DNA from: Candidatus Enterenecus merdae
Lineage (GTDB): Bacteria; Bacillota; Clostridia; Oscillospirales; Oscillospiraceae
Length of the DNA: 64,000 bases
Assembly (NCBI GenBank): GCA_018716385.1
Contig: DVJZ01000026.1
Span: 62,001 to 126,000, forward strand
Direction of reading: 5' to 3'
Part shown: positions 46,968-63,032 of the stretch, in pieces
Position numbering within the stretch: the stretch's first letter is position 1
Layout: every line of letters starts with the position of its first letter
Made by a program: the position numbers and the translations under genes
Notes under the pieces: model-generated
What the model was told of the DNA's origin: nothing
Database searches by the model: none
What the model saw: the letters and a program-made list of their open reading frames with translations, nothing else

Positions 46968-47170
46968 CTGCAATTTTCTCCATTCTATCACATCCCTCGC
47001 CCTCTTGCACCAAAGGTTTCCCTTTCCCCCTTTCTATCCGGGGAAATGGGCTCCATTCCCGCCCCTTTCCACCACTGTAAAATATTTTCTACTTTCCCAT
47101 TCCAGTTTCATCTTCCTTTCATGTTTCATTGGTAGGATGTGGCCAGAAAGAAGAAAGGAGCTCTTCCCTT

Positions 47171-48376
47171 ATGAACCGGAAACAAAGAAGAAACGCCCTC
47201 ACCGCCCTATGCGCGGCGGGCCTGCTGGCCTTTGCCGCCGGCTGCGGACAGCAGCAGGGCTCGGCCGACTATATCGGCCTGGACGCGGCCAAAACCATCG
47301 CCCTGGAGGACGCGGGGGTGGACGAGTCAGCCGCCTCCTTCTCCATCACCGGGCTGGACCGGCAGAACGGCACCGATTTCTATGCCATCGACTTCACCGC
47401 CAACGGCCAGAGCTATACCTATGACATCGACGCGCTCACCGGCAACATCCTCAACAGCGGCGATGGGGCCGGGGCCTCCCCCGCCTCCATCACCGAGGAG
47501 CAGGCCCGGGAGATCGCGTTGAGCCATGCGGGGCTCAGCGCCGACCAGGTTACCTTCCTGCGGTGTGTGGCCGACCGGGAGGACGGCCGGCAGGTGTACG
47601 ACGTGGAGTTCTACACCGCTGATTTCACTGAGTACGATTACGAGATCGCCCTGGACAGTGGCGAAGTCCTCTCCTATGATTTCGACGTGGAGGGCTATGA
47701 CCGCCCCGCTCCCAGCGCAGATCCCACCCCCGTACCCAGCGCCCAGACCGGCACCACCTCTACCGCCGGCAGCAGCGGCTCCACCTCCAGCGGGGCAACA
47801 TCCGGCGGGTCTGCCGCCAGCGGCGGTACCTCTGGCGGGAGCACCTCCAGCGGCAGCTCTGGCGGCACCACTTCCGGCGGTGGGTCTACCTCTACCGGTA
47901 CCGGCATCACCGCCGATCAGGCCCGGCAGATCGCCTTGAACCACGCGGGGCTCAGCGCCAGCCAGGTCACCTTCCTGCGCAGCCATCTGGACTGGGAGAA
48001 CGGCCGCCGGGTGTATGATGTGGAGTTTTACAGCACCTCCAACTATGCCGAGTACGACTATGAGATCGACGCCTCCAGCGGTACGGTGCTCTCCTATGAC
48101 TACGACGCGGAGTACTATACGCCCCCCAGCTCCGGTGGAAACACCGGCGGCAGTTCGGGCGCCACCATCTCCTTGGACCAGGCCCGGCAGACCGCCCTGG
48201 CCCGGGTGCCCGGCGCCACCGCCAATGACATCCGGATCCACCTGGACTATGACGACGGCCGGGTGGAATACGAGGGCACCATCTACTACAACCAGACGGA
48301 GTATGAGTTCACCATCGACGCCTACTCCGGCGTCATCCGGGAGTGGGACGTGGAGTCCCACCAGGGCCGGTGGTAA
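47171..48376 (+). CDS. Lipoprotein with multiple PepSY domains and a Ser/Gly/Thr-rich linker
   Basis: MNRKQRRNALTALCAAGLLAFAAGCGQQQ lipobox; repeated ITxxQAxxIALxHAGLSAxQVTFLR...VYDVEFYS..EYDYEID..SGxVLSYDYD. Confidence 0.85.
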   Translation: MNRKQRRNALTALCAAGLLAFAAGCGQQQGSADYIGLDAAKTIALEDAGVDESAASFSITGLDRQNGTDFYAIDFTANGQSYTYDIDALTGNILNSGDGAGASPASITEEQAREIALSHAGLSADQVTFLRCVADREDGRQVYDVEFYTADFTEYDYEIALDSGEVLSYDFDVEGYDRPAPSADPTPVPSAQTGTTSTAGSSGSTSSGATSGGSAASGGTSGGSTSSGSSGGTTSGGGSTSTGTGITADQARQIALNHAGLSASQVTFLRSHLDWENGRRVYDVEFYSTSNYAEYDYEIDASSGTVLSYDYDAEYYTPPSSGGNTGGSSGATISLDQARQTALARVPGATANDIRIHLDYDDGRVEYEGTIYYNQTEYEFTIDAYSGVIREWDVESHQGRW

Positions 48377-48461
48377 GCCCGTACCGCACCGCTTCCTGTA
48401 ACAGACCACCCCAGGCAACGCTACCTGAAGACCAAATCTTTGAGAAAAGGAGACCTGAACC

Positions 48462-49610
48462 ATGAAGCTACAAACCATCTTCCGTCGCGCGGGGGCCATC
48501 CTGATCGGCACGTCCCTGGCTGTGGGCCTGCTGATCACCTCTGCCGGCGCAGCCGTCGCCAGCGGCGTGGCTGCCCAGCTGTCCCCCAACTTCACCGTGC
48601 TGGTGGACGGTGAGTCCCGCACCTTCTACAACGTGGCCGGCGTTGAGGTACACCCCATTTTGTACAACGGCACCACCTACCTACCCGTCCGGGCCATGAG
48701 CGAGCTGATCGGCAAGAACGTCAACTGGGATCAGAGCACCTACACCGTCTCCCTGGGCGGAACCCGCACCACCCCGCCCACCGTGGGCACGCCTGACCTC
48801 TACGCCGTGACCCGGGATGTGACGGTGCGTCTGTCCCCGGACATCACCGTGCTCATGGACGGCGTACAGCGCCAGTTTGCCGACGCCAACGGCAACACCG
48901 TCTATCCCCTGCTCTATGACGGGTCGGTCTACCTGCCCATCCGGGCCATCGGCAACCTGATGGGAATGAGCGTGGGCTGGAACGGCTCCACCCAGACGGT
49001 CAGCCTGAACGGCAGTACCGCCGGCGAGGGCTCCCTGGTCACCGACGCGGACAGCTTCGGCCCCACTGATCCCAACACCGGCAACACTGGCACCACCACC
49101 CCCACCTATCCCGACACCGGATCCGGCTCCACCGGCACCGGCATCACCGCCGAGCAGGCCCAGCAGATCGCCCTGAACCACGCGGGGCTCAGCGCCAGCC
49201 AGGTTGCCTTTGTGCGCAGCCACCTGGACTGGGAGCACGGCCGCCAGGTGTACGATGTGGAGTTCTACAGCACCTCGAACTACACCGAGTACGACTATGA
49301 GATCGACGCCACCAACGGCACAATCCTCTCCTACGATTACGATGCAGAGTACTGGAACCGTCCCAGCTATCCCAGCTATCCTAACACCGGCTCCGGCGGC
49401 ACCAGCGCTGCCATCTCCCTGGAAGAGGCCAAGCAGATCGCTTTGGCCCGGGTTCCCGGCGCCACCAATATCCGCATCCACCTGGAATGGGATGACGGTC
49501 GGCTGCAGTACGAGGGCTCCATCTACTATGGCTACTGGGAGTATGAGTTCTCCATGGATGCCAACACCGGCACCATCTGGGAGTGGGAGCGGGATCACAT
49601 CTACGACTGA
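48462..49610 (+). CDS. Copper-amine-oxidase-like N-terminal domains plus PepSY domains, secreted
   Basis: Signal peptide; two NGTTYLPVRAMSELIGKNVNWDQSTYTVSLGG-type modules; PepSY repeats similar to 47171-48376. Confidence 0.85.
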   Translation: MKLQTIFRRAGAILIGTSLAVGLLITSAGAAVASGVAAQLSPNFTVLVDGESRTFYNVAGVEVHPILYNGTTYLPVRAMSELIGKNVNWDQSTYTVSLGGTRTTPPTVGTPDLYAVTRDVTVRLSPDITVLMDGVQRQFADANGNTVYPLLYDGSVYLPIRAIGNLMGMSVGWNGSTQTVSLNGSTAGEGSLVTDADSFGPTDPNTGNTGTTTPTYPDTGSGSTGTGITAEQAQQIALNHAGLSASQVAFVRSHLDWEHGRQVYDVEFYSTSNYTEYDYEIDATNGTILSYDYDAEYWNRPSYPSYPNTGSGGTSAAISLEEAKQIALARVPGATNIRIHLEWDDGRLQYEGSIYYGYWEYEFSMDANTGTIWEWERDHIYD

Positions 49611-53721: not shown

Positions 53722-55605
53722 TCATCCCCAGGGGGTGAGGGCAATCTCCCCGCCGGCAACTTCCGCCCGGTAGAGCTGCCCCAGCCGAGTCCCCGGGGGC
53801 AGCAACTCCAGCAAGGCCTGGTCACACTCCATGAGGTAGAGATAGCCACAGTGGTTCTCTTGCAGCGCGGCGGACAGGGCATCGTAATCCGCCTGTCCCC
53901 CCTGATTCAGATAGGTGTAGGCGAAGGACACCGGAGAGGCGGCGTTGACCACCACGGGGTTCATCTCCGACTGGGTCAGCGCCAGCAGCACCCGGGCGCC
54001 GCTCTCCCGGTAGGGGACGGCCTCCAGCGCCTCCAGAAAGGCCCCGTAGTCCGTCTCGAAGCGGGCCCGGTGGGCCAGGCGGGAGGCGTCTATCTCATCG
54101 TGGATGAACCTGCGGTAGGCCTCGTCATAGCTGGTGCAACCCAGCAGGATCAGCGCCGTCAGCGCCCCCGCCACCCATTGCCGCCGGGCAGGCAGCCCCC
54201 GCAGCTGCGCCCCGGGAGCCAGGCCCGAGGCCAGCGCCGCCACCAGCATCAAAAGCCCCGTGTTGGCCGGCTCACAGTACCGGCTCATCAGGGTGACGGC
54301 GTTGACGGGTTCGAAATACTGGCTCTCGTCATAGAACATGGTCAGCTGGCCCACGGACACCACGAAGTAGATCAGGAACGTGACGCCCAGGATATAGGCC
54401 AGCAGCAGCTTCCCCCGCCCCTTGGGCACCGCGCCAAACCGCCACAACAGCGCGGCGGCACACACCAGCAGCACCACGATGGCAAAGGGGGTCAGGTCGA
54501 TGGCCAGGGTGCTCTCCCGGTGGACGGGGGTGAGGAAGAAGGCCTGGAGATAGGAGCGGATATACCCCCGGGTCACGGCGGAGTCCAGGAAGGTGCCGTT
54601 GGCCAGCTCAGACAGTCGTTGGGCGGCCCGGTCGAAGAACCCGCTGGCCAGGTATCCGCTGCGCTCCATCACCCGGCAGTAGATCGACCAGCTCTGGGCC
54701 AGGAGCACTGGGACCGCCAGCAGCAGGCCGGCAAAGCGGTACTCCCGCCGCCCCCGCCACCACAGCAGAAAGAACAGGCCGGCCAGCACGCTCCACAGCA
54801 AGCCGATACCTTTCATCAACGCCAGGTATCCGGCGGCCACCGCCAGCTCCCCCTTCCAAAAGGCCACCTGGCGGTCAGGGCGTAGGACGATCTTGCACAG
54901 GATCATCCCGAACAGGATGGCCATGACCGGGTCCACGCAGATGGTCCGGTACAGGGCGGTGCTGGACACGCCGGGCAGGCACAGGGCGCACAGGGGGATG
55001 AGCAGCCAGGTGACGGGCCGTCCCCTGGGATAGCGCGTCCAAAAAACCGCCCCCACGGAAAAGAGCATGAGGCTGCTGAAGATGAAGTAGCCAAAGAACA
55101 GATACTGCTCCTGGTAGCCGCCAAACAGGTGGGCAAACCACCACAGGATCAGCTGTAGACCCGGGCTGTAATCCCCAAACCCCTGGGCCACGTTGCTGTA
55201 CCTGGCGGCAAAGCCCTCCCGGAAATACAGGCTCTTGGTGTCCGGGCCCCAGAAGTTGTAGGCGTCCCACTCCAGGATCTGCTCCCCGCGCAGCAGCAGG
55301 CACATGACGGCCAGCAGCAGCACGCAGCCCCAGAGATAGGGATCGGCCAGCTGCCGCTTCAGCTCTTGAACCAGGGCCCTGGCGCCCTCTCTCCGAACGG
55401 TTCGGGCGGCCCAGAGGATCCCGCCCACTCCGGCCAGCAGCAGCACGCCATCGATCATCCCCATCCCCCCGAAGAAGGCCAGGACATAGAGGATCAGCCC
55501 GATGGCGCACAACAAGTAGGGGGCCAGCTCCACCGGCCGACGCCCGGTGCGCCAGGCCAGGGCAAATAGGGCGCAAAACAGCCCCAGCAGGGAGAAAACC
55601 GCCAT
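53722..55605 (-). CDS. Polytopic membrane protein, GT-C-fold glycosyltransferase-like (YfhO/PMT-like role inferred)
   Basis: Multiple TM helices with first-loop EWDAYNFWGPDTKSLYFREG acidic motif; 4 bp downstream of GT2-GtrA gene. Confidence 0.65.
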   Translation of the reverse strand: MAVFSLLGLFCALFALAWRTGRRPVELAPYLLCAIGLILYVLAFFGGMGMIDGVLLLAGVGGILWAARTVRREGARALVQELKRQLADPYLWGCVLLLAVMCLLLRGEQILEWDAYNFWGPDTKSLYFREGFAARYSNVAQGFGDYSPGLQLILWWFAHLFGGYQEQYLFFGYFIFSSLMLFSVGAVFWTRYPRGRPVTWLLIPLCALCLPGVSSTALYRTICVDPVMAILFGMILCKIVLRPDRQVAFWKGELAVAAGYLALMKGIGLLWSVLAGLFFLLWWRGRREYRFAGLLLAVPVLLAQSWSIYCRVMERSGYLASGFFDRAAQRLSELANGTFLDSAVTRGYIRSYLQAFFLTPVHRESTLAIDLTPFAIVVLLVCAAALLWRFGAVPKGRGKLLLAYILGVTFLIYFVVSVGQLTMFYDESQYFEPVNAVTLMSRYCEPANTGLLMLVAALASGLAPGAQLRGLPARRQWVAGALTALILLGCTSYDEAYRRFIHDEIDASRLAHRARFETDYGAFLEALEAVPYRESGARVLLALTQSEMNPVVVNAASPVSFAYTYLNQGGQADYDALSAALQENHCGYLYLMECDQALLELLPPGTRLGQLYRAEVAGGEIALTPWG

Positions 55606-55609
55606 GCCC

Positions 55610-56653
55610 TCACCCTCTCTCCGCCGGCGATCCGGTCACCTCCCGGAAGATGAGCCGGCGCTGCACCCAGTAGTTGACCACGAACAGCACCCCGTCCACC
55701 AGCGCCTTGATCAGCGTCAGGGGCAGGGGCAGCGGGCGCAGGAGGATGACCAGGCCGCCGCTGGCCAGCATGGCGCAGACCCACAGCAGCGCATATTTCC
55801 AGAACTGGCTCCAGGTACGCTTGCGCACCTGGAAGCTCCAGCGCTGGTTGAGCTTGAAGTTGACATAACCTGACACACACCGGGCCAGGGCGGTGGCGGC
55901 CAGGATGCCCAACCGAGGGGCAAGCAGGGCGAACAGCAACAGATCCACCCCACAGCCCGCCAGGGAGGAGGCCGCATACTTCAGGGGCCGCTGATAGATC
56001 CGCGCGCTGTCCACCACCGTGCGGAAGTGGGAGCCGCGGTTGTTGTCCTCGTAGACGGTCTGGATGGGGATCATCTGGATGGGATAGCGGGCCTGGGTCA
56101 CCTCGGTGAGCATATTGGTCTCATACTCGTACCGCTCCCCAGGCAGGTCCAGCAGCAACTGGAACAGCGCCCGGGGAAGGCCCCGCAGGCCGGTCTGGGT
56201 GTCCGGGCAGTCCAGGCCCGTGCCCAGGCGGACAAAGAAGGATGTAATCCGGTTGCCCATCCGGGAGCGCCAGGGCACATTTCCTCCGGAGAAGTCCCGG
56301 ATGCCCAGCACGAAGGGGTGATCCGGCCCGGCCAATGCCTGGGCCACCCGGCGGATGTCCTGGGGCAGGTGCTGTCCGTCCGCGTCCGCGGTGACCACCC
56401 CGGACAGGGCGGGGAAGCGCTCCAGGGCGGCGCGCAGCCCGGTCTTTAGGGCCGCCCCCTTGCCCCGGTTGACATCGTGGCGCACCACCACCGCGCCCAG
56501 GGCCTCCACCTGCTGGAAAACCTGGGCGTAGGAGGGGCCCGAGCCGTCGTCCACCACCACGATGTCCCCCATCCCCTCCCGCAGGCAGCCCTGGACCACC
56601 GCGGGCAGGTGGCCGTCGGGGTTGAGCGAGGGGATCAAAACAACGCTGTCCAT
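55610..56653 (-). CDS. GT2 glycosyltransferase (DPM1/CsbB-like) fused to GtrA-like membrane domain
   Basis: MDSVVLIPSLNPDGHLPAVVQGCLREGMGDIVVVDDGSG...NRGKGAALKTGL...TADADGQH; C-terminal GVDLLLFALLAPRLGILAATALARCVSGYVNFKLNQRWSF. Confidence 0.88.
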   Translation of the reverse strand: MDSVVLIPSLNPDGHLPAVVQGCLREGMGDIVVVDDGSGPSYAQVFQQVEALGAVVVRHDVNRGKGAALKTGLRAALERFPALSGVVTADADGQHLPQDIRRVAQALAGPDHPFVLGIRDFSGGNVPWRSRMGNRITSFFVRLGTGLDCPDTQTGLRGLPRALFQLLLDLPGERYEYETNMLTEVTQARYPIQMIPIQTVYEDNNRGSHFRTVVDSARIYQRPLKYAASSLAGCGVDLLLFALLAPRLGILAATALARCVSGYVNFKLNQRWSFQVRKRTWSQFWKYALLWVCAMLASGGLVILLRPLPLPLTLIKALVDGVLFVVNYWVQRRLIFREVTGSPAERG

Positions 56654-56675
56654 AGCGCCCTCCTTTCCGGCCACC

Positions 56676-57722
56676 TCAGGCCCCGGCGTCCGGGAGCTGG
56701 ACCGCGAGATAGGGGGGGAAGGGGATGGGCTCTGCCTTGGCGTACTCCAGCAGAAGGTTGGCCCCATCCTCCTCCACCTCGTCAAATCCCGCCAGCTTGT
56801 AGGTGATATACATGATCCGGTTGTGCTCGGTCTCTAAAAATTCCGCCTGGAGCGCCTTCCCCTCCGCCTGGGCCAGCTGGGTGGCGTAGGCCAGCAGGGC
56901 CGAGCCGATCCCCCGGGTCATCACCCGGCAGGAGACGATCAACAGCTTCAGGCGCAGGGCCTGGGCCTGCCGCTCCAGCAGCAACAGGCCCACTTTGCCG
57001 CTGTCGCCATAGCGGTCCTGGAGCCCGCAGATGCAGAAGATGTGCTCCGGCGACTGGGCCAGGGCCAGCAGCTGCTCATAGGAGTAGGTGTACCCGGTGG
57101 AGTTGAGCTGGTGGGTGCGCACCGTCAGCTCCTCCACCCGCTGCAGGTCCTCCTGCGTCACCCGGGTGATCTCCATGCGCATGCCCAGCGTGGCCAAAAA
57201 CTCCTCCGCGCTGCCCCCAAAGTCCCGCTCCGCCGCCTGGCGGTTCAGGTCCGCCTGGTACATCTTGCGGCGGTTGGCCGAGTCCTGGGTGATGAAGCGC
57301 ACACGGCACTCCGGCAGCTGGGGCAAGCCGGCGGCCTGGGCCGCGTCATAGGTGCGCACCTTGGGGTGGGCAAAGCGCACCTCGTCCCGCTCAAAGGGGC
57401 TGTCGTCCACAAAGGCCACCGCCTCGGGCTTGAGGTTGAGGGTGTCCAGGATGGCCTGCACCGCCCCGGACTTGGGCCCCCAGGAGATCTGGGGGCACAG
57501 GAAGTAGTCGGCCAGGCCAAAGGCCTCCAGCCGCTTTAGGGCAGGGGAGGCGTCGTTCTTGGAGGCCACGGACTGGATGATGCCCCGGCGGTCCAGCTCC
57601 CGGATGGCGTCGGCCACGCCGGGGCGCAGCGCCTGGGCGCCCCCCTCGGTCAGGGTCCCCTCCCACACGGTGCCGTCCAAGTCCCAGATCACGCACTTGA
57701 CCTGCGCGGGCTTGTCAGCCAT
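56676..57722 (-). CDS. FkbH-family HAD-superfamily protein (predicted glyceryl transferase/phosphatase)
   Basis: KCVIWDLDGTVWEGTLTEGG...VASKNDASPALKRLEAFGLADYFLCPQISWGPKSGAVQAILDTLNLKPEAVAFVDDSPFERDEVR...TVRTHQLNSTGYTYS...YGDSGKVGLLLLE: N-terminal HAD plus GNAT-like C-terminus as in FkbH. Confidence 0.88.
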   Translation of the reverse strand: MADKPAQVKCVIWDLDGTVWEGTLTEGGAQALRPGVADAIRELDRRGIIQSVASKNDASPALKRLEAFGLADYFLCPQISWGPKSGAVQAILDTLNLKPEAVAFVDDSPFERDEVRFAHPKVRTYDAAQAAGLPQLPECRVRFITQDSANRRKMYQADLNRQAAERDFGGSAEEFLATLGMRMEITRVTQEDLQRVEELTVRTHQLNSTGYTYSYEQLLALAQSPEHIFCICGLQDRYGDSGKVGLLLLERQAQALRLKLLIVSCRVMTRGIGSALLAYATQLAQAEGKALQAEFLETEHNRIMYITYKLAGFDEVEEDGANLLLEYAKAEPIPFPPYLAVQLPDAGA

Positions 57723-57984
57723 TCCCTTCACCCCCGTCGCCCAGGCGCCGCTGGACCAGCTCAGCCATGGCGTCGATGGTGTGGAAGTTCTGCTCCGTGA
57801 TGTCCCGGCGGCCCAGTTTGAGATGGAACTCCCGCTCGATGAACTGCACGATCTGCAGGGCGAATAGGGAGGTGATATACTTGCTCTGAAACAGCTCCGT
57901 GTCATATTGGAGCCCGTCCGCCTGCTTCAATTGAATGAGAAACTGATAGATGCGTTCCTTGATGGCTTGCGCTTCCATGTCCAT
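57715..57984 (-). CDS. Acyl-carrier-like protein
   Basis: QFLIQLKQADGLQYDTELFQSKYITSLFALQIVQFIEREFHLKLGRRDITEQNFHTIDAMAELVQRRLG; Ser in TSL (usual DSL); 8-bp overlap with FkbH gene. Confidence 0.8.
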   Translation of the reverse strand: MDMEAQAIKERIYQFLIQLKQADGLQYDTELFQSKYITSLFALQIVQFIEREFHLKLGRRDITEQNFHTIDAMAELVQRRLGDGGEGNG

Positions 57985-58005
57985 TGCCTCCTTATCCCTA
58001 TGGGC

Positions 58006-59853
58006 TCACTGTATGGCCTGTAACGATTCCTCGATCCGCTCCAGCAGGGCCTGGGCCGTCAGCCCGCCCTCCACCGTGAGCCGCCGCAGCTGGTAGAGGG
58101 ACTGCTGCGCCCCCTTCAGCAGCTGGTTGGCTCCGCTCTGGGTGGTGACGCTCACCTGCACACCCAGCTCCTGCAGCACCACCTCGGACAGGGGGGAGCA
58201 CAGCCCGTTGGGATAGGTGTACACCGGGCAGGTCTCACCCACCGCCTCCTCCAGCTGCTGCCGGGCCTGGAGGTAATCCTGGGTGAGGGCGGCGACGTAC
58301 GCCTGCTCGCTCTCCCCCTCCATCTGGAGCACCCCCTGCCGGCAGCCCTCCCCATCCAGGGCGGCCACCTGGTGCATGTCATAGCTGTGGGTGGTCAGAG
58401 TCAGCACCCCCCGCTGCACCCAGGGCAGGGCCTCCTCCAGAGAGAAGTGGGGGGTGATGGGCTGGCCGGTGTCCTTGTAAGTGGATTTCCCCACGGACAC
58501 GCCAATGACGGCGATGTTGGCCGTAAAGCCGTACTGCTCCAGCAGAGGGGCGGCCAGCTCCAGGTTGTTCCGGTAGCCGTCGTCAATGGTGATCACCACC
58601 GGCTTGTCCGGCAGGTCGGTCCCCTGGGTGACAAAGTCGATGAGCTGCTGATAGCTCACGCTGGTATACCCCGCGTCCCGCAGGGCCTGGAGCTGGGCCT
58701 CAAAGTCAGAGGCGAGCACAGTCGTGCCGCTGACCTCGTCCTCCCGATCTGTAAAGGAGTGGTACATCAGGATGGGCACCTGGGCGGTGAGTTCCTCCCC
58801 ACCCTCCCCCTGGGCATAAGCGGCCTGGATCACCTCCGCCACGTTCTCCGCCGTGGTCAGCGCGCCAAAGCCCTCGGGCACATAGACCGACGCATCGTCA
58901 AACAGGGTGGCCAGCACCATCGCCCCGGCGTTGTTGCGAAAATGCTGCACGTCGTAGAAGTAACGCAGGTCCCCGTTGATGCTGTTGTTGCCCCAAAAGG
59001 CGTAGAAGTCGTCGATCTGAGCCGCCCGGGTCCAGAACTCCTCCACCCCCTCCCGGGGGTAGGCGGAAAACTCCGCCTGGGACACGGGCACGCCCACCAT
59101 GGTGAATCCGATGCCGTTTTGGTCGCACAAGTCCTTGATCTGCTGGATGGCGGAGATGGCCTCGTCGATGTAGTCCATGGACGCGGGGGCCAGGGTGGTG
59201 GCCATCCCCTCGTAGGCCAGGTAGCTGGCCATGTCCTGAATGGGGGAGGAGTCCCGCAAGGTCTTGTCATAAACCCCCGTCTCGGGCACATAGACCGTGG
59301 AGTCGTCGGGCAGGTAACCTGCGTCCAGGCGGCTGACCAGCTTGTCCCAGGCATAGCCCAGGTTGGCGAAGAGATAGCGACCGTAAAACAGCAGGCCGCT
59401 CTCCCCGCACACCTTGCCGTGCATCGCCTGGCGCAGGTCGGACTGGCTGCCCTGGTCATAGAGGCTGGCGCTCTCCGGGTCGATGGTCAGCAGGATATGC
59501 TCCACCTGGTAGTGCTCCACCAGGTAGGCGGCCAGCTGCGCCTCGTCCAGCAGATCCCCGCCGTACCAGGTCATGTTGTAGTAGCGGTCCCCGGTGTAGG
59601 CGTTGAGCGCCTCCACGCTGAGGGAGGAGGCTTTGGAGCTGCCGATGACATAGGCGTTGTAGTCCTGGTAGTGCTGGTCCAGATAGGCGATCTTGGCCAC
59701 CCTGGGGTTCTGGGTCATGTCGTAGGCATACCATTGGAAGAACCGGTCGCCAAACACCCCGAAGGGGTCTACGATCACATTGCAGGCCGCCAGCAAAACC
59801 ACCCCGCCCAGCAGCGCGGCCAGGAATCCCAAAAGCCACTTTTTGACCGACAT
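58006..59853 (-). CDS. Fusion: SGNH-hydrolase/DltD-like domain + PgaB/IcaB-type polysaccharide deacetylase
   Basis: N-terminal TM/signal, YVIGSSKASSLSVEALN (SGNH block I), YFYDVQHFRNNAG (DxxH); C-terminal PILMYHSFTD, VVITIDDGYRNN, LTTHSYDMHQ. Confidence 0.82.
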   Translation of the reverse strand: MSVKKWLLGFLAALLGGVVLLAACNVIVDPFGVFGDRFFQWYAYDMTQNPRVAKIAYLDQHYQDYNAYVIGSSKASSLSVEALNAYTGDRYYNMTWYGGDLLDEAQLAAYLVEHYQVEHILLTIDPESASLYDQGSQSDLRQAMHGKVCGESGLLFYGRYLFANLGYAWDKLVSRLDAGYLPDDSTVYVPETGVYDKTLRDSSPIQDMASYLAYEGMATTLAPASMDYIDEAISAIQQIKDLCDQNGIGFTMVGVPVSQAEFSAYPREGVEEFWTRAAQIDDFYAFWGNNSINGDLRYFYDVQHFRNNAGAMVLATLFDDASVYVPEGFGALTTAENVAEVIQAAYAQGEGGEELTAQVPILMYHSFTDREDEVSGTTVLASDFEAQLQALRDAGYTSVSYQQLIDFVTQGTDLPDKPVVITIDDGYRNNLELAAPLLEQYGFTANIAVIGVSVGKSTYKDTGQPITPHFSLEEALPWVQRGVLTLTTHSYDMHQVAALDGEGCRQGVLQMEGESEQAYVAALTQDYLQARQQLEEAVGETCPVYTYPNGLCSPLSEVVLQELGVQVSVTTQSGANQLLKGAQQSLYQLRRLTVEGGLTAQALLERIEESLQAIQ

Positions 59854-59878
59854 AGCAAGCTCCTTTTGCGCCAGAGGC

Positions 59879-61300
59879 TTAGAAATTAAAGTAGAGGAAG
59901 GTGGACACCTGGCTCATGTTCAGCAGGGAGGCGGCCAGCACCAGGCCGCTCCACACCCCGTCCCGCAGGGAGAAGGTCTTTTTCTCCATGATCCCGTTGG
60001 AGTTGGGCAGGCAGAAGGTGATGATGGCCGAAGCGGCCAAGATCAGGCACAGCAGAAGATGCTCCCCCACAAAGCCCGCCGCGCTGGCCAGCAGGCCGGC
60101 GGGGTCGGACCAGGCCGAGAGGGAGAACATCCTCCGGTACACCTGGGCTGCCTGGCCCAGGTCGGTGCAGTCAAACAGCACCCGGATGAGCACCGAGCAG
60201 AAGAAGGTCATGGCCACGGCCAGGGCGGCGGGCAGCGGCTTGCGCATCTTCAGCGCCCGCAGGTTGGCCAGGCAGACCAGCACGCCGTTGACCAACCCCC
60301 AGGCCACAAAGTGCCAGCCCGCCCCATGCCAGATGCCGGAGGCGGCAAAGGTGAGCAGAACCGCCAGGATCATCTTTCCCGTCCGATCCCCAAAGTGGAA
60401 GACGTTGTGAAAGACATACTCGTTGAAAAACCGGGACACGGTGATGTTCCACCGCCGCCAGAAGGTGGCAAAGTCCCGGGCTTTGTAAGGGGAGTCAAAG
60501 TTGATGGGCAGGTGCACGCCGAAGAAGCAGCCCAGCCCCCTGGCCATGTCAATGTACCCGGAAAAGTCGAAGTAGTAGGCAAAGGTGTAGCACAGCACCC
60601 CCACCCAGGCCTCCACCGTGGTGGCCTGGGCCACCTGCCCGCCGTAAAAGGCGGTGGCAAAGTCGATCATAGGATTGGCCAGCAGGATCTTCTTCCCACA
60701 CCCCACGCAGAAGAGCATCACGCCCCGGCAGACGTCCTGGCCGGAAAACTCCAGCAGCTTCCGCCCCTGGATCTGGGGCACGATCTCGTCCTCCTTGACC
60801 ACCGGGCCCACGATCAGCTGGGGGAAGAAGGTGATGAACAGGGTGTAGTCCAGAAAGGAGAGATAGCCGCACTCCCCCCGGTAAAAGGAAACGGTGTACA
60901 TGAGGATCTGGAAGGTGAAAAAGGAGATGCCAATGGGCAGGATGGTGGACAGCAGGGCAAAGTCCGTGCCCAGCACCAGGTTGAGGTTCTCCAGGAAAAA
61001 GTTGGCGTACTTGTAGTACCCCAGCAGCCCCAGGTTGAGCAGCACCGCCGCGGCCAGCAGCAACCGCCGGGCCGCAGTCCGCTCCACCCGGTGCAGGAGG
61101 GTGACCAGCAGGTAGTTGACCAGGATGATCCCCAAAAAGCCCAGCACAAACTCGGGCTGGCCCAACCCGTAAAAGACCAGGGAGGCCAACACCAGCCAGC
61201 CCTTCATCCCGGCCACATTCCCCCAATGGCGCAACAGGTGATAGCCCAACAGCACCACGGGCAGGAACAGGAAGATAAATTGGTAGGAGGAGAAGATCAT
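59879..61300 (-). CDS. MBOAT family O-acyltransferase (DltB/AlgI-like)
   Basis: MIFSSYQFIFLFLPVVLLGYHLL...LPIGISFFTFQILMYTVSFYRG...FPQLIVGPVVK...RWNITVSRFFNEYVFHNV...TFAASGIWHGAGWHFVAWGLVNG. Confidence 0.96.
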   Translation of the reverse strand: MIFSSYQFIFLFLPVVLLGYHLLRHWGNVAGMKGWLVLASLVFYGLGQPEFVLGFLGIILVNYLLVTLLHRVERTAARRLLLAAAVLLNLGLLGYYKYANFFLENLNLVLGTDFALLSTILPIGISFFTFQILMYTVSFYRGECGYLSFLDYTLFITFFPQLIVGPVVKEDEIVPQIQGRKLLEFSGQDVCRGVMLFCVGCGKKILLANPMIDFATAFYGGQVAQATTVEAWVGVLCYTFAYYFDFSGYIDMARGLGCFFGVHLPINFDSPYKARDFATFWRRWNITVSRFFNEYVFHNVFHFGDRTGKMILAVLLTFAASGIWHGAGWHFVAWGLVNGVLVCLANLRALKMRKPLPAALAVAMTFFCSVLIRVLFDCTDLGQAAQVYRRMFSLSAWSDPAGLLASAAGFVGEHLLLCLILAASAIITFCLPNSNGIMEKKTFSLRDGVWSGLVLAASLLNMSQVSTFLYFNF

Positions 61301-61322
61301 AGGCGCGCGTCCGTTCTTTCCG

Positions 61323-61351
61323 TTTACAGGTTGAGGATTTCTTGCTATGAT
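61323..61351 (+). promoter_or_regulatory. Promoter of PPTase gene
   Basis: TTTACA-17 bp-TATGAT. Confidence 0.65.
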
Positions 61352-61405
61352 GGTGATCACAAGGCGGCGGGGCAGGCGTGTCCCGCCGGCAAAGGAGGGT
61401 TGTCC

Positions 61406-61984
61406 ATGCGCGTTTACTGGTGCGACCTGGCCCCGTTGCTGACCCAGCCGGAGCGGTTTCTGGGCTGGTGCGTCAGCCAGGGCCTGTCCCTGGCTCCCTA
61501 CCTGCGCCTGGACGACGCGGCCCGCCATCTGGCCGGGGCGCAGCTGCGCCGCCTGGCCGGGGCGGACGGCGCCCCGCCGGCCCGCCTCAGCATCAGCCAC
61601 TCAGGTGCCCTGGTGGTGTGCGCCCGGGGAGCCGGCCCGCTGGGCATTGACACCGAGCAGGTGTGCCCGTCCACCGCGCCCCTGCCCCTGTCCTGCCTCA
61701 CCGGCCAGGAGTGCCGCTGGCTGGCCGGGCAGGCCCAGCCCAGCCGGGCCTTCCTGCGCCTGTGGACCCGGAAGGAGTGCCTGCTCAAGGCCGAAGGGGG
61801 CGGCCTGGCCGACCTGGCCAACCTGCCCTGCCTGGTGGAAGGGGGGCTTCTGCGCCCCCGGGCCGGCCGGCTGCGCCTCCGGGAGCTTTCCATCTTACCC
61901 GGGTATGTCACCAGCCTGTGCGCCCGGAAGATGGGGCCGGTGGCGCTGCGCCCCCTATCCCTGGACCAGGTATTCCCGCTCTGA
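61406..61984 (+). CDS. Sfp-type 4'-phosphopantetheinyl transferase (second in window)
   Basis: ARLSISHSGALVVCARGAGPLGIDTEQV...FLRLWTRKECLLKAEGGGL. Confidence 0.9.
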   Translation: MRVYWCDLAPLLTQPERFLGWCVSQGLSLAPYLRLDDAARHLAGAQLRRLAGADGAPPARLSISHSGALVVCARGAGPLGIDTEQVCPSTAPLPLSCLTGQECRWLAGQAQPSRAFLRLWTRKECLLKAEGGGLADLANLPCLVEGGLLRPRAGRLRLRELSILPGYVTSLCARKMGPVALRPLSLDQVFPL

Positions 61985-62770: not shown

Positions 62771-62891
62771 GCAAACCGCTCACGCTGGGTTTGCCTGGGG
62801 CCCCCTTCCTTTCCCTTCCTCGGGCGGGAGTGAATCCCGCCCTGCGGGAAATGCCTCCCGGCATTTCCTCGCGCCATCCGGCGCGGCGGCC
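62771..62891 (-). repeat. 121-bp intergenic repeat, copy 1
   Basis: gcaaaccgctcacgctgggtttgcctggggcc...tttcctcgcgccatccggcgcggcggcc. Confidence 0.95.
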
Positions 62892-62911
62892 AGAAGGCCG
62901 CTATTCCCACC

Positions 62912-63032
62912 GCAAACCGCTCACGCTGGGTTTGCCTGGGGCCCCCTTCCTTTCCCTTCCTCGGGCGGAAGTGAATCCCGCCCTGCGGGAAATGCCTCCC
63001 GGCATTTCCTCGCGCCATCCGGCGCGGCGGCC
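62912..63032 (-). repeat. 121-bp intergenic repeat, copy 2
   Basis: One mismatch to copy 1 (g at 62828 vs a at 62969); offset 141 bp. Confidence 0.95.

Follow-up and report, generated by a model that had tools for sequence, protein, structure and literature searches.

D-alanylation of teichoic acids by the Dlt system (DltABCD-X) relies on an MBOAT protein and an SGNH transferase that are fed by a carrier protein, on a tyrosine shuttle within an FXYXXF motif, and on a charging enzyme encoded in the same operon. In O-acetyltransferases of the PatA/PatB type (PatAB, AlgIJX, PatA1B1, and WssHI), an MBOAT protein with a C-terminal shuttle hexapeptide works with a separate SGNH protein. PatA acetylates the tyrosine of its own C-terminal hexapeptide, and FXYXXF is the shuttle motif there and also in DltX (PMC12148441). 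These systems use acetyl-coenzyme A (acetyl-CoA), and no MBOAT-SGNH pathway apart from Dlt is said to have a carrier protein (PMC12148441). In tetronate and methoxymalonate biosynthesis, in turn, FkbH enzymes are described as forming glyceryl-acyl carrier protein (glyceryl-ACP) (PMC7489565). Here we describe a locus that shares features with each of these systems, found in a 64,000-nucleotide stretch of DNA (the window) from Candidatus Enterenecus merdae (assembly GCA_018716385.1, contig DVJZ01000026.1, positions 62,001 to 126,000), which belongs to contig C11 in a 1.80 Mb genome that is 99% complete. Judged from its sequence, the locus most likely encodes an FkbH-charged MBOAT-SGNH acylation module that transfers glyceryl to a glycan of the envelope.

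Six genes are packed on the minus strand with intergenic distances of 25, 21, -8, 22, and 4 bp (recomputed from the sequence), and a phosphopantetheinyl transferase (PPTase) gene is divergent from them. This tight operon and its divergent neighbor had been described in a first-pass annotation of the same DNA, and both the coordinates of the seven genes and the gaps between them were confirmed exactly. All seven genes, in unchanged order, are also present in two congeners. The nearest named relative in a scan of GTDB genomes was Candidatus Enterenecus stercoripullorum, whose SGNH protein, a fusion with a NodB-type deacetylase domain (SGNH-NodB), is 83% identical. The scan was seeded from an alignment of seven SGNH-NodB proteins using peptides from the SGNH domain only, so FkbH, ACP, and MBOAT played no part in the selection. 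It covers the best 80 loci, with neighbors counted within 6.5 kb; some loci are almost identical to one another or come from short contigs, and counts refer to loci rather than to independent events. The order MBOAT > SGNH-NodB > ACP > FkbH was observed in 25 of the 29 loci with FkbH, and this four-gene core was thus recovered in 25 of 80 loci. Together with the gene order shared by the two congeners, this rules out chance adjacency. The core is a conserved module, and the architecture is not a one-off, recurring in many metagenome-assembled genomes of Oscillospiraceae-type Clostridia.

Charging of the carrier protein

The fkbH gene (56676-57722, minus strand) encodes a short-form protein of 348 aa (HAD-IIIC plus GNAT-like) that is a predicted glyceryl-ACP synthase. 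It scored 251.2 bits against TIGR01686 (cut-off 146.65) and carries the HAD catalytic residues of the family: D14, D16, S54, K84, D106, and D107, as well as the SCR cysteine C265, were invariant among ten aligned FkbH proteins. Its reading frame overlaps by 8 bp that of a carrier protein of 89 aa (57715-57984, minus strand), in which Ser39, the phosphopantetheine site within the motif TSLF, was invariant in 24 sequences. A Pfam search gave no match to this carrier or to the GT-C protein described below; the former was identified by alignment and the latter by fold search. The FkbH and ACP genes are adjacent in almost every FkbH locus retrieved from the order.

The first-pass annotation had drawn attention to a dltA-like or other acyl-activating enzyme that might charge the carrier from elsewhere. 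DltA was not found in this 99% complete genome, where the sole AMP-binding protein resembles long-chain fatty acid CoA ligases. No protein of the genome matched DltD (PF04914), FkbH is encoded once, and two further ACPs, both canonical and distinct from that of the window, are encoded elsewhere. For these reasons the gene content fits a dedicated FkbH-ACP pair.

Among the 80 surveyed loci, the charging gene was FkbH in 29 and an AMP ligase in 28, never both; two had an ACP only (short contigs with no visible charging enzyme), and 21 had none of these. Ligase-type loci are mostly ordered ligase, GNAT, ACP, MBOAT, SGNH-NodB, and the five ligases that were scanned are amino-acid adenylation enzymes for which DltA was the next best model, at scores below the DltA cut-offs. 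Loci with a DltA-like adenylation enzyme, GNAT, ACP, MBOAT, and SGNH-NodB comprise L112 (1494-7460), L118, L128, L159, and 24 more; those containing a GNAT possibly transfer an N-acylated aminoacyl group. Comparative evidence supports the view that either a DltA-like enzyme or FkbH would serve as charger for the same membrane and outside parts.

On a tree of the MBOAT proteins, the charging mode tracked the branching, with 5 changes (minimum possible 4, shuffled mean 47.5). The MBOATs of the window type fall into one fully supported group with carrier-less ones, which come from Paenibacillus, Planococcus, and a small number of other bacteria. Of the 11 carrier-less genomes examined, 9 encode no FkbH anywhere, and by analogy with PatA their group probably uses an acyl-CoA. 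MBOAT and SGNH-NodB genes with neither carrier nor charger nearby were seen at L133, L136, L148, L150, L152, L155, L160, L162, L164, and L169, mostly in Paenibacillus.

Within the same bacterial order, long FkbH proteins (the FkbH_N domain was checked in one) accompany other MBOAT groups. In 27 of 46 loci fetched around FkbH matches from relatives and the order, an MBOAT gene lay within about 4 kb; as the genome of Ca. E. merdae has two MBOAT genes in 1.8 Mb, chance would account for roughly one such case at most. Since long FkbH proteins are paired with other MBOAT groups and the proximity exceeds chance, sequence comparison indicates that FkbH has been paired with MBOAT at least twice. At L017, L018, L072-L075, L077, L078, L081, L083, L086, and L087, a long FkbH and an ACP are accompanied by an MBOAT about 1.3-3.1 kb away, with other genes in between, an arrangement that is common in the order. 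One membrane acylation chassis would thus have been combined with differing chargers, namely FkbH at least twice, an AMP ligase, or none. No published account of this architecture was found in the open-access literature on FkbH with MBOAT, glycerate, capsule, or teichoic acid, an absence that is not proof.

The FkbH of the window shares 54% identity, across 98% of its length, with FkbH proteins encoded on Streptomyces plasmids and groups with them in a clade of 30 (99% support in the SH-like approximate likelihood ratio test, SH-aLRT). The plasmid cassettes (FkbK-ACP-FkbI-FkbH) encode a 3-hydroxyacyl-CoA dehydrogenase, an ACP, an acyl-CoA dehydrogenase, and FkbH; cytochrome P450 genes lie close by, as do methyltransferase and polyketide synthase (PKS) genes in S. 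albidoflavus. By gene content they look like the glyceryl-ACP/methoxymalonyl-ACP cassette. The proposal of the first-pass annotation that FkbH takes the charging role of DltA gained support from this grouping, from the mutual exclusion of FkbH and ligase in the survey, and from the lack of dltA and dltD in the genome. As in the methoxymalonyl-ACP and tetronate cassettes, FkbH adjoins a stand-alone ACP, but the locus is without dehydrogenases, methyltransferase, FabH, and PKS, and its partner is a membrane acyltransferase. A short FkbH and an ACP were also seen at L016 and L054, with AMP-binding enzymes nearby and without MBOAT; these FkbH proteins group with those of Streptomyces, and the loci may be secondary-metabolite clusters.

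Homologues of the two dehydrogenases FkbI and FkbK, sought with the Streptomyces proteins, were not found in the window, and no convincing case was found beside the 29 FkbH-type loci, some of which have isolated dehydrogenase matches nearby. The only strong matches, a pair at L111, were set aside: an EtfB-like gene follows, the pair lies beyond a ribosomal-protein-L13-like gene, and the two were taken as probable butyrate genes. Because both follow-up dehydrogenases are missing, the simplest product predicted from family and context would be glyceryl-ACP.

Membrane and outer components

The MBOAT acyltransferase (59879-61300, minus strand; 473 aa) is DltB/PatA-like. It matched PF03062 in the Pfam search (E = 2.7e-22) as well as the DltB structures 6bug and 8jem, and its score against the DltB profile TIGR04091 (132.8 bits, cut-off 375) places it outside DltB. 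The WHG motif with the catalytic histidine is found within GIWHGAGW, and the protein ends in FLYFNF, which fits FXYXXF; a catalytic histidine and a C-terminal tyrosine motif are the marks of envelope acyltransferases of the MBOAT-SGNH type. Of the MBOATs from FkbH-type loci, 27 of 28 have a C-terminal FXYXXF, and the motif is also present in each of the 22 MBOATs in the tree that belong with a long FkbH. The second MBOAT of the genome (L005:8789-11893, contig C39) ends in FLYFRF and is followed by a secreted protein that by eye is AlgJ/AlgX-like, probably an ordinary O-acetylation pair.

The next gene (58006-59853, minus strand) encodes a membrane-anchored fusion of a DltD-like SGNH acyltransferase domain (residues 1-345) with a deacetylase domain of the NodB/PgaB/PplD type (residues 350-615), modeled by AlphaFold with a pLDDT of 94.6. 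In an alignment of 40 sequences, S73 of the SGNH catalytic set was near-invariant, D301 and H304 were invariant, and so were D424, D425, H489, and H494 of the NodB domain. The C-terminal half matched Polysacc_deac_1 (PF01522) and gave strong Foldseek matches to PplD, PgaB, and IcaB. A single hydrophobic N-terminal helix in sequence and model suggests a membrane anchor with both domains outside, and the protein has the serine and DxxH of an SGNH partner acting outside the membrane. As PplD and PgaB are the nearest folds to the deacetylase half, a glycan of the N-acetylglucosamine (GlcNAc) type would be a reasonable guess for the acceptor. The SGNH-NodB fusion was present in all 80 loci, irrespective of charging mode, which suggests that the deacetylase goes with the polymer rather than with the acyl group.

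The module thus resembles Dlt in its carrier-fed MBOAT and SGNH transferase, its FXYXXF tyrosine shuttle, and its charger in the operon. It differs in that FkbH stands where Dlt has the adenylating DltA, the shuttle motif is on the MBOAT itself rather than on the DltX microprotein, the SGNH domain is fused to a NodB deacetylase, and the acyl group is predicted to be glyceryl from a glycolytic acyl phosphate rather than ATP-activated D-alanine. No separate DltX microprotein was identified, although no exhaustive scan for an additional small open reading frame was made. With no DltA, no DltD, an MBOAT below the cut-off for DltB, and no separate DltX identified, the module falls outside the Dlt system, although its mode of action would be similar. 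It differs from PatA/PatB-type systems in having a dedicated ACP and charging enzyme. The first-pass annotation had read the locus as Dlt-like B, C, and D parts; this reading is refined in that the module is not Dlt proper, given the PatA-type C-terminal shuttle motif and a score far below the DltB cut-off. Its interpretation overall was partly supported, with the charging role of FkbH retained and the glycosylation pair given up as a fixed part.

Proposed route and its alternatives

We consider it likely that the four proteins act together in acylation across the membrane, with FkbH substituting for DltA, and that glyceryl is transferred to an envelope glycan. The PPTase would convert apo-ACP into holo-ACP. 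FkbH would take the glyceryl unit of 1,3-bisphosphoglycerate, its HAD domain removing the 3-phosphate, and D-glyceryl would be placed on the ACP thiol, as expected from the family. By the PatA/DltX mechanism, the MBOAT would then accept glyceryl from ACP at the cytoplasmic face, and the WHG histidine would pass it to the tyrosine of its own FLYFNF tail at the outer face. The serine of the membrane-anchored SGNH domain would receive it there and pass it on to a hydroxyl group of a glycan exported to the envelope, and the fused NodB domain would strip N-acetyl groups from that glycan. In this genus, the GT2-GtrA/GT-C pair may add a sugar to the same glycan outside the membrane. Glyceryl esters on a bacterial polysaccharide have a precedent in native gellan gum, which carries L-glyceryl and acetyl esters (PMC4392319, PMC9104527), although in that case L-glycerate is attached to a Gram-negative exopolysaccharide. 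No paper naming a glyceryl transferase of gellan was found in the open-access literature.

Several points weigh against this reading. The acyl identity, the direction of transfer, the acceptor, and the bond are predictions from sequence and analogy. The Streptomyces cassettes were identified by gene content only, and that of S. californicus, located among nonribosomal peptide synthetase genes, is not a complete methoxymalonyl set. The SGNH half matched DltD (7dxm, 6pfx) and PatB (8tlb) in Foldseek with good probability and weak E-values (2e-3 to 4e-2), and the relation to DltD by hhalign was remote, at a probability of only 12.5%, a match too weak to be retained as proof of homology. In addition, the sister MBOAT clade in Paenibacillus has no carrier or FkbH nearby, and the MBOAT fold alone does not prove carrier use.

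An unlikely variant is a carrier-fed, FkbH-charged system whose acyl group is other than plain glyceryl (lactyl, hydroxymalonyl, or methylated glyceryl), made by FkbH or with a gene elsewhere. Methoxymalonate pathways oxidize and methylate FkbH products further (PMC7489565), and the close plasmid relatives in Streptomyces sit with FkbI/FkbK and methyltransferase genes, but the lack of convincing FkbI or FkbK genes beside the FkbH-type loci, and of any in the window, argues against this variant. A little less probable is attachment to nitrogen, in which NodB would take the N-acetyl group off an amino sugar of the envelope and the fused SGNH domain would put glyceryl on the amine thus exposed. 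Acetyl would thus be swapped for glyceryl from 1,3-bisphosphoglycerate with no ATP-dependent activating enzyme, and surface glycan acylation would be directly coupled to glycolytic flux. The invariable fusion of the two domains and the conservation of both catalytic sets agree with such an exchange; however, characterized MBOAT-SGNH systems make esters (PMC12148441), and in carrier-less Paenibacillus loci, which have the fusion too, two separate modifications of a single polymer are the simpler explanation. It is very improbable that FkbH and ACP constitute a separate secondary-metabolite pathway and are mere neighbors of an acetyl-CoA-fed MBOAT/SGNH pair. The sister clade without carrier and FkbH and the use of acetyl-CoA by other PatA-type systems (PMC12148441) would be compatible with this, but ACP-FkbH is locked beside MBOAT/SGNH-NodB across a deep clade, and in the other branch an AMP ligase and an ACP fill the same role.

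If glyceryl is indeed transferred by this module, the locus family, which looks like a widespread carrier-fed exception among MBOAT-SGNH systems, would have a charging enzyme that consumes a glycolytic acyl phosphate and requires neither ATP nor an amino acid. The locus family predicts that many uncultured Clostridia of the gut carry a glyceryl ester on their envelope, which would tie surface chemistry to glycolysis. Confirmation would make this a novel type of surface decoration, powered in an unusual way and built by the sort of membrane machinery that serves D-alanine attachment elsewhere.

Glycosylation pair and neighboring genes

Downstream of fkbH are a GT2 polyprenyl-phosphate sugar synthase fused to a GtrA-type membrane domain (55610-56653, minus strand; PF00535 and PF04138, with weak similarity to PpgS/AglJ) and a polytopic glycosyltransferase of the GT-C fold (53722-55605, minus strand). 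The latter, with an AlphaFold pLDDT of 73.5, resembles AftA, STT3, ArnT, and AglB in Foldseek, the first three all being GT-C enzymes, and has alignable relatives in related loci. The GT2, GtrA, and GT-C parts of a three-component glycosylation system, a predicted function, are thus contained in one operon. The pair was found beside 10 of the 29 FkbH-type loci, in some downstream of fkbH and in others upstream of the PPTase gene, which supports a functional link with the module in that group. Acylation coupled to three-component glycosylation had also been proposed; the parts are present in the operon as described, whereas an obligate coupling was rejected on this count.

The divergent gene (61406-61984, plus strand) encodes an Sfp-type PPTase (PF01648), the presumed activator of the ACP, and a divergent PPTase gene was observed in 10 of the 29 FkbH-type loci. 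Elsewhere in the window, positions 47129-49610 contain an adjacent pair of secreted proteins with repeated stretches that by eye are PepSY-like, and at positions 62771-63032, between two V-type ATPase subunit genes, a 141-bp unit is repeated in tandem (1.9 copies, 99% matches).

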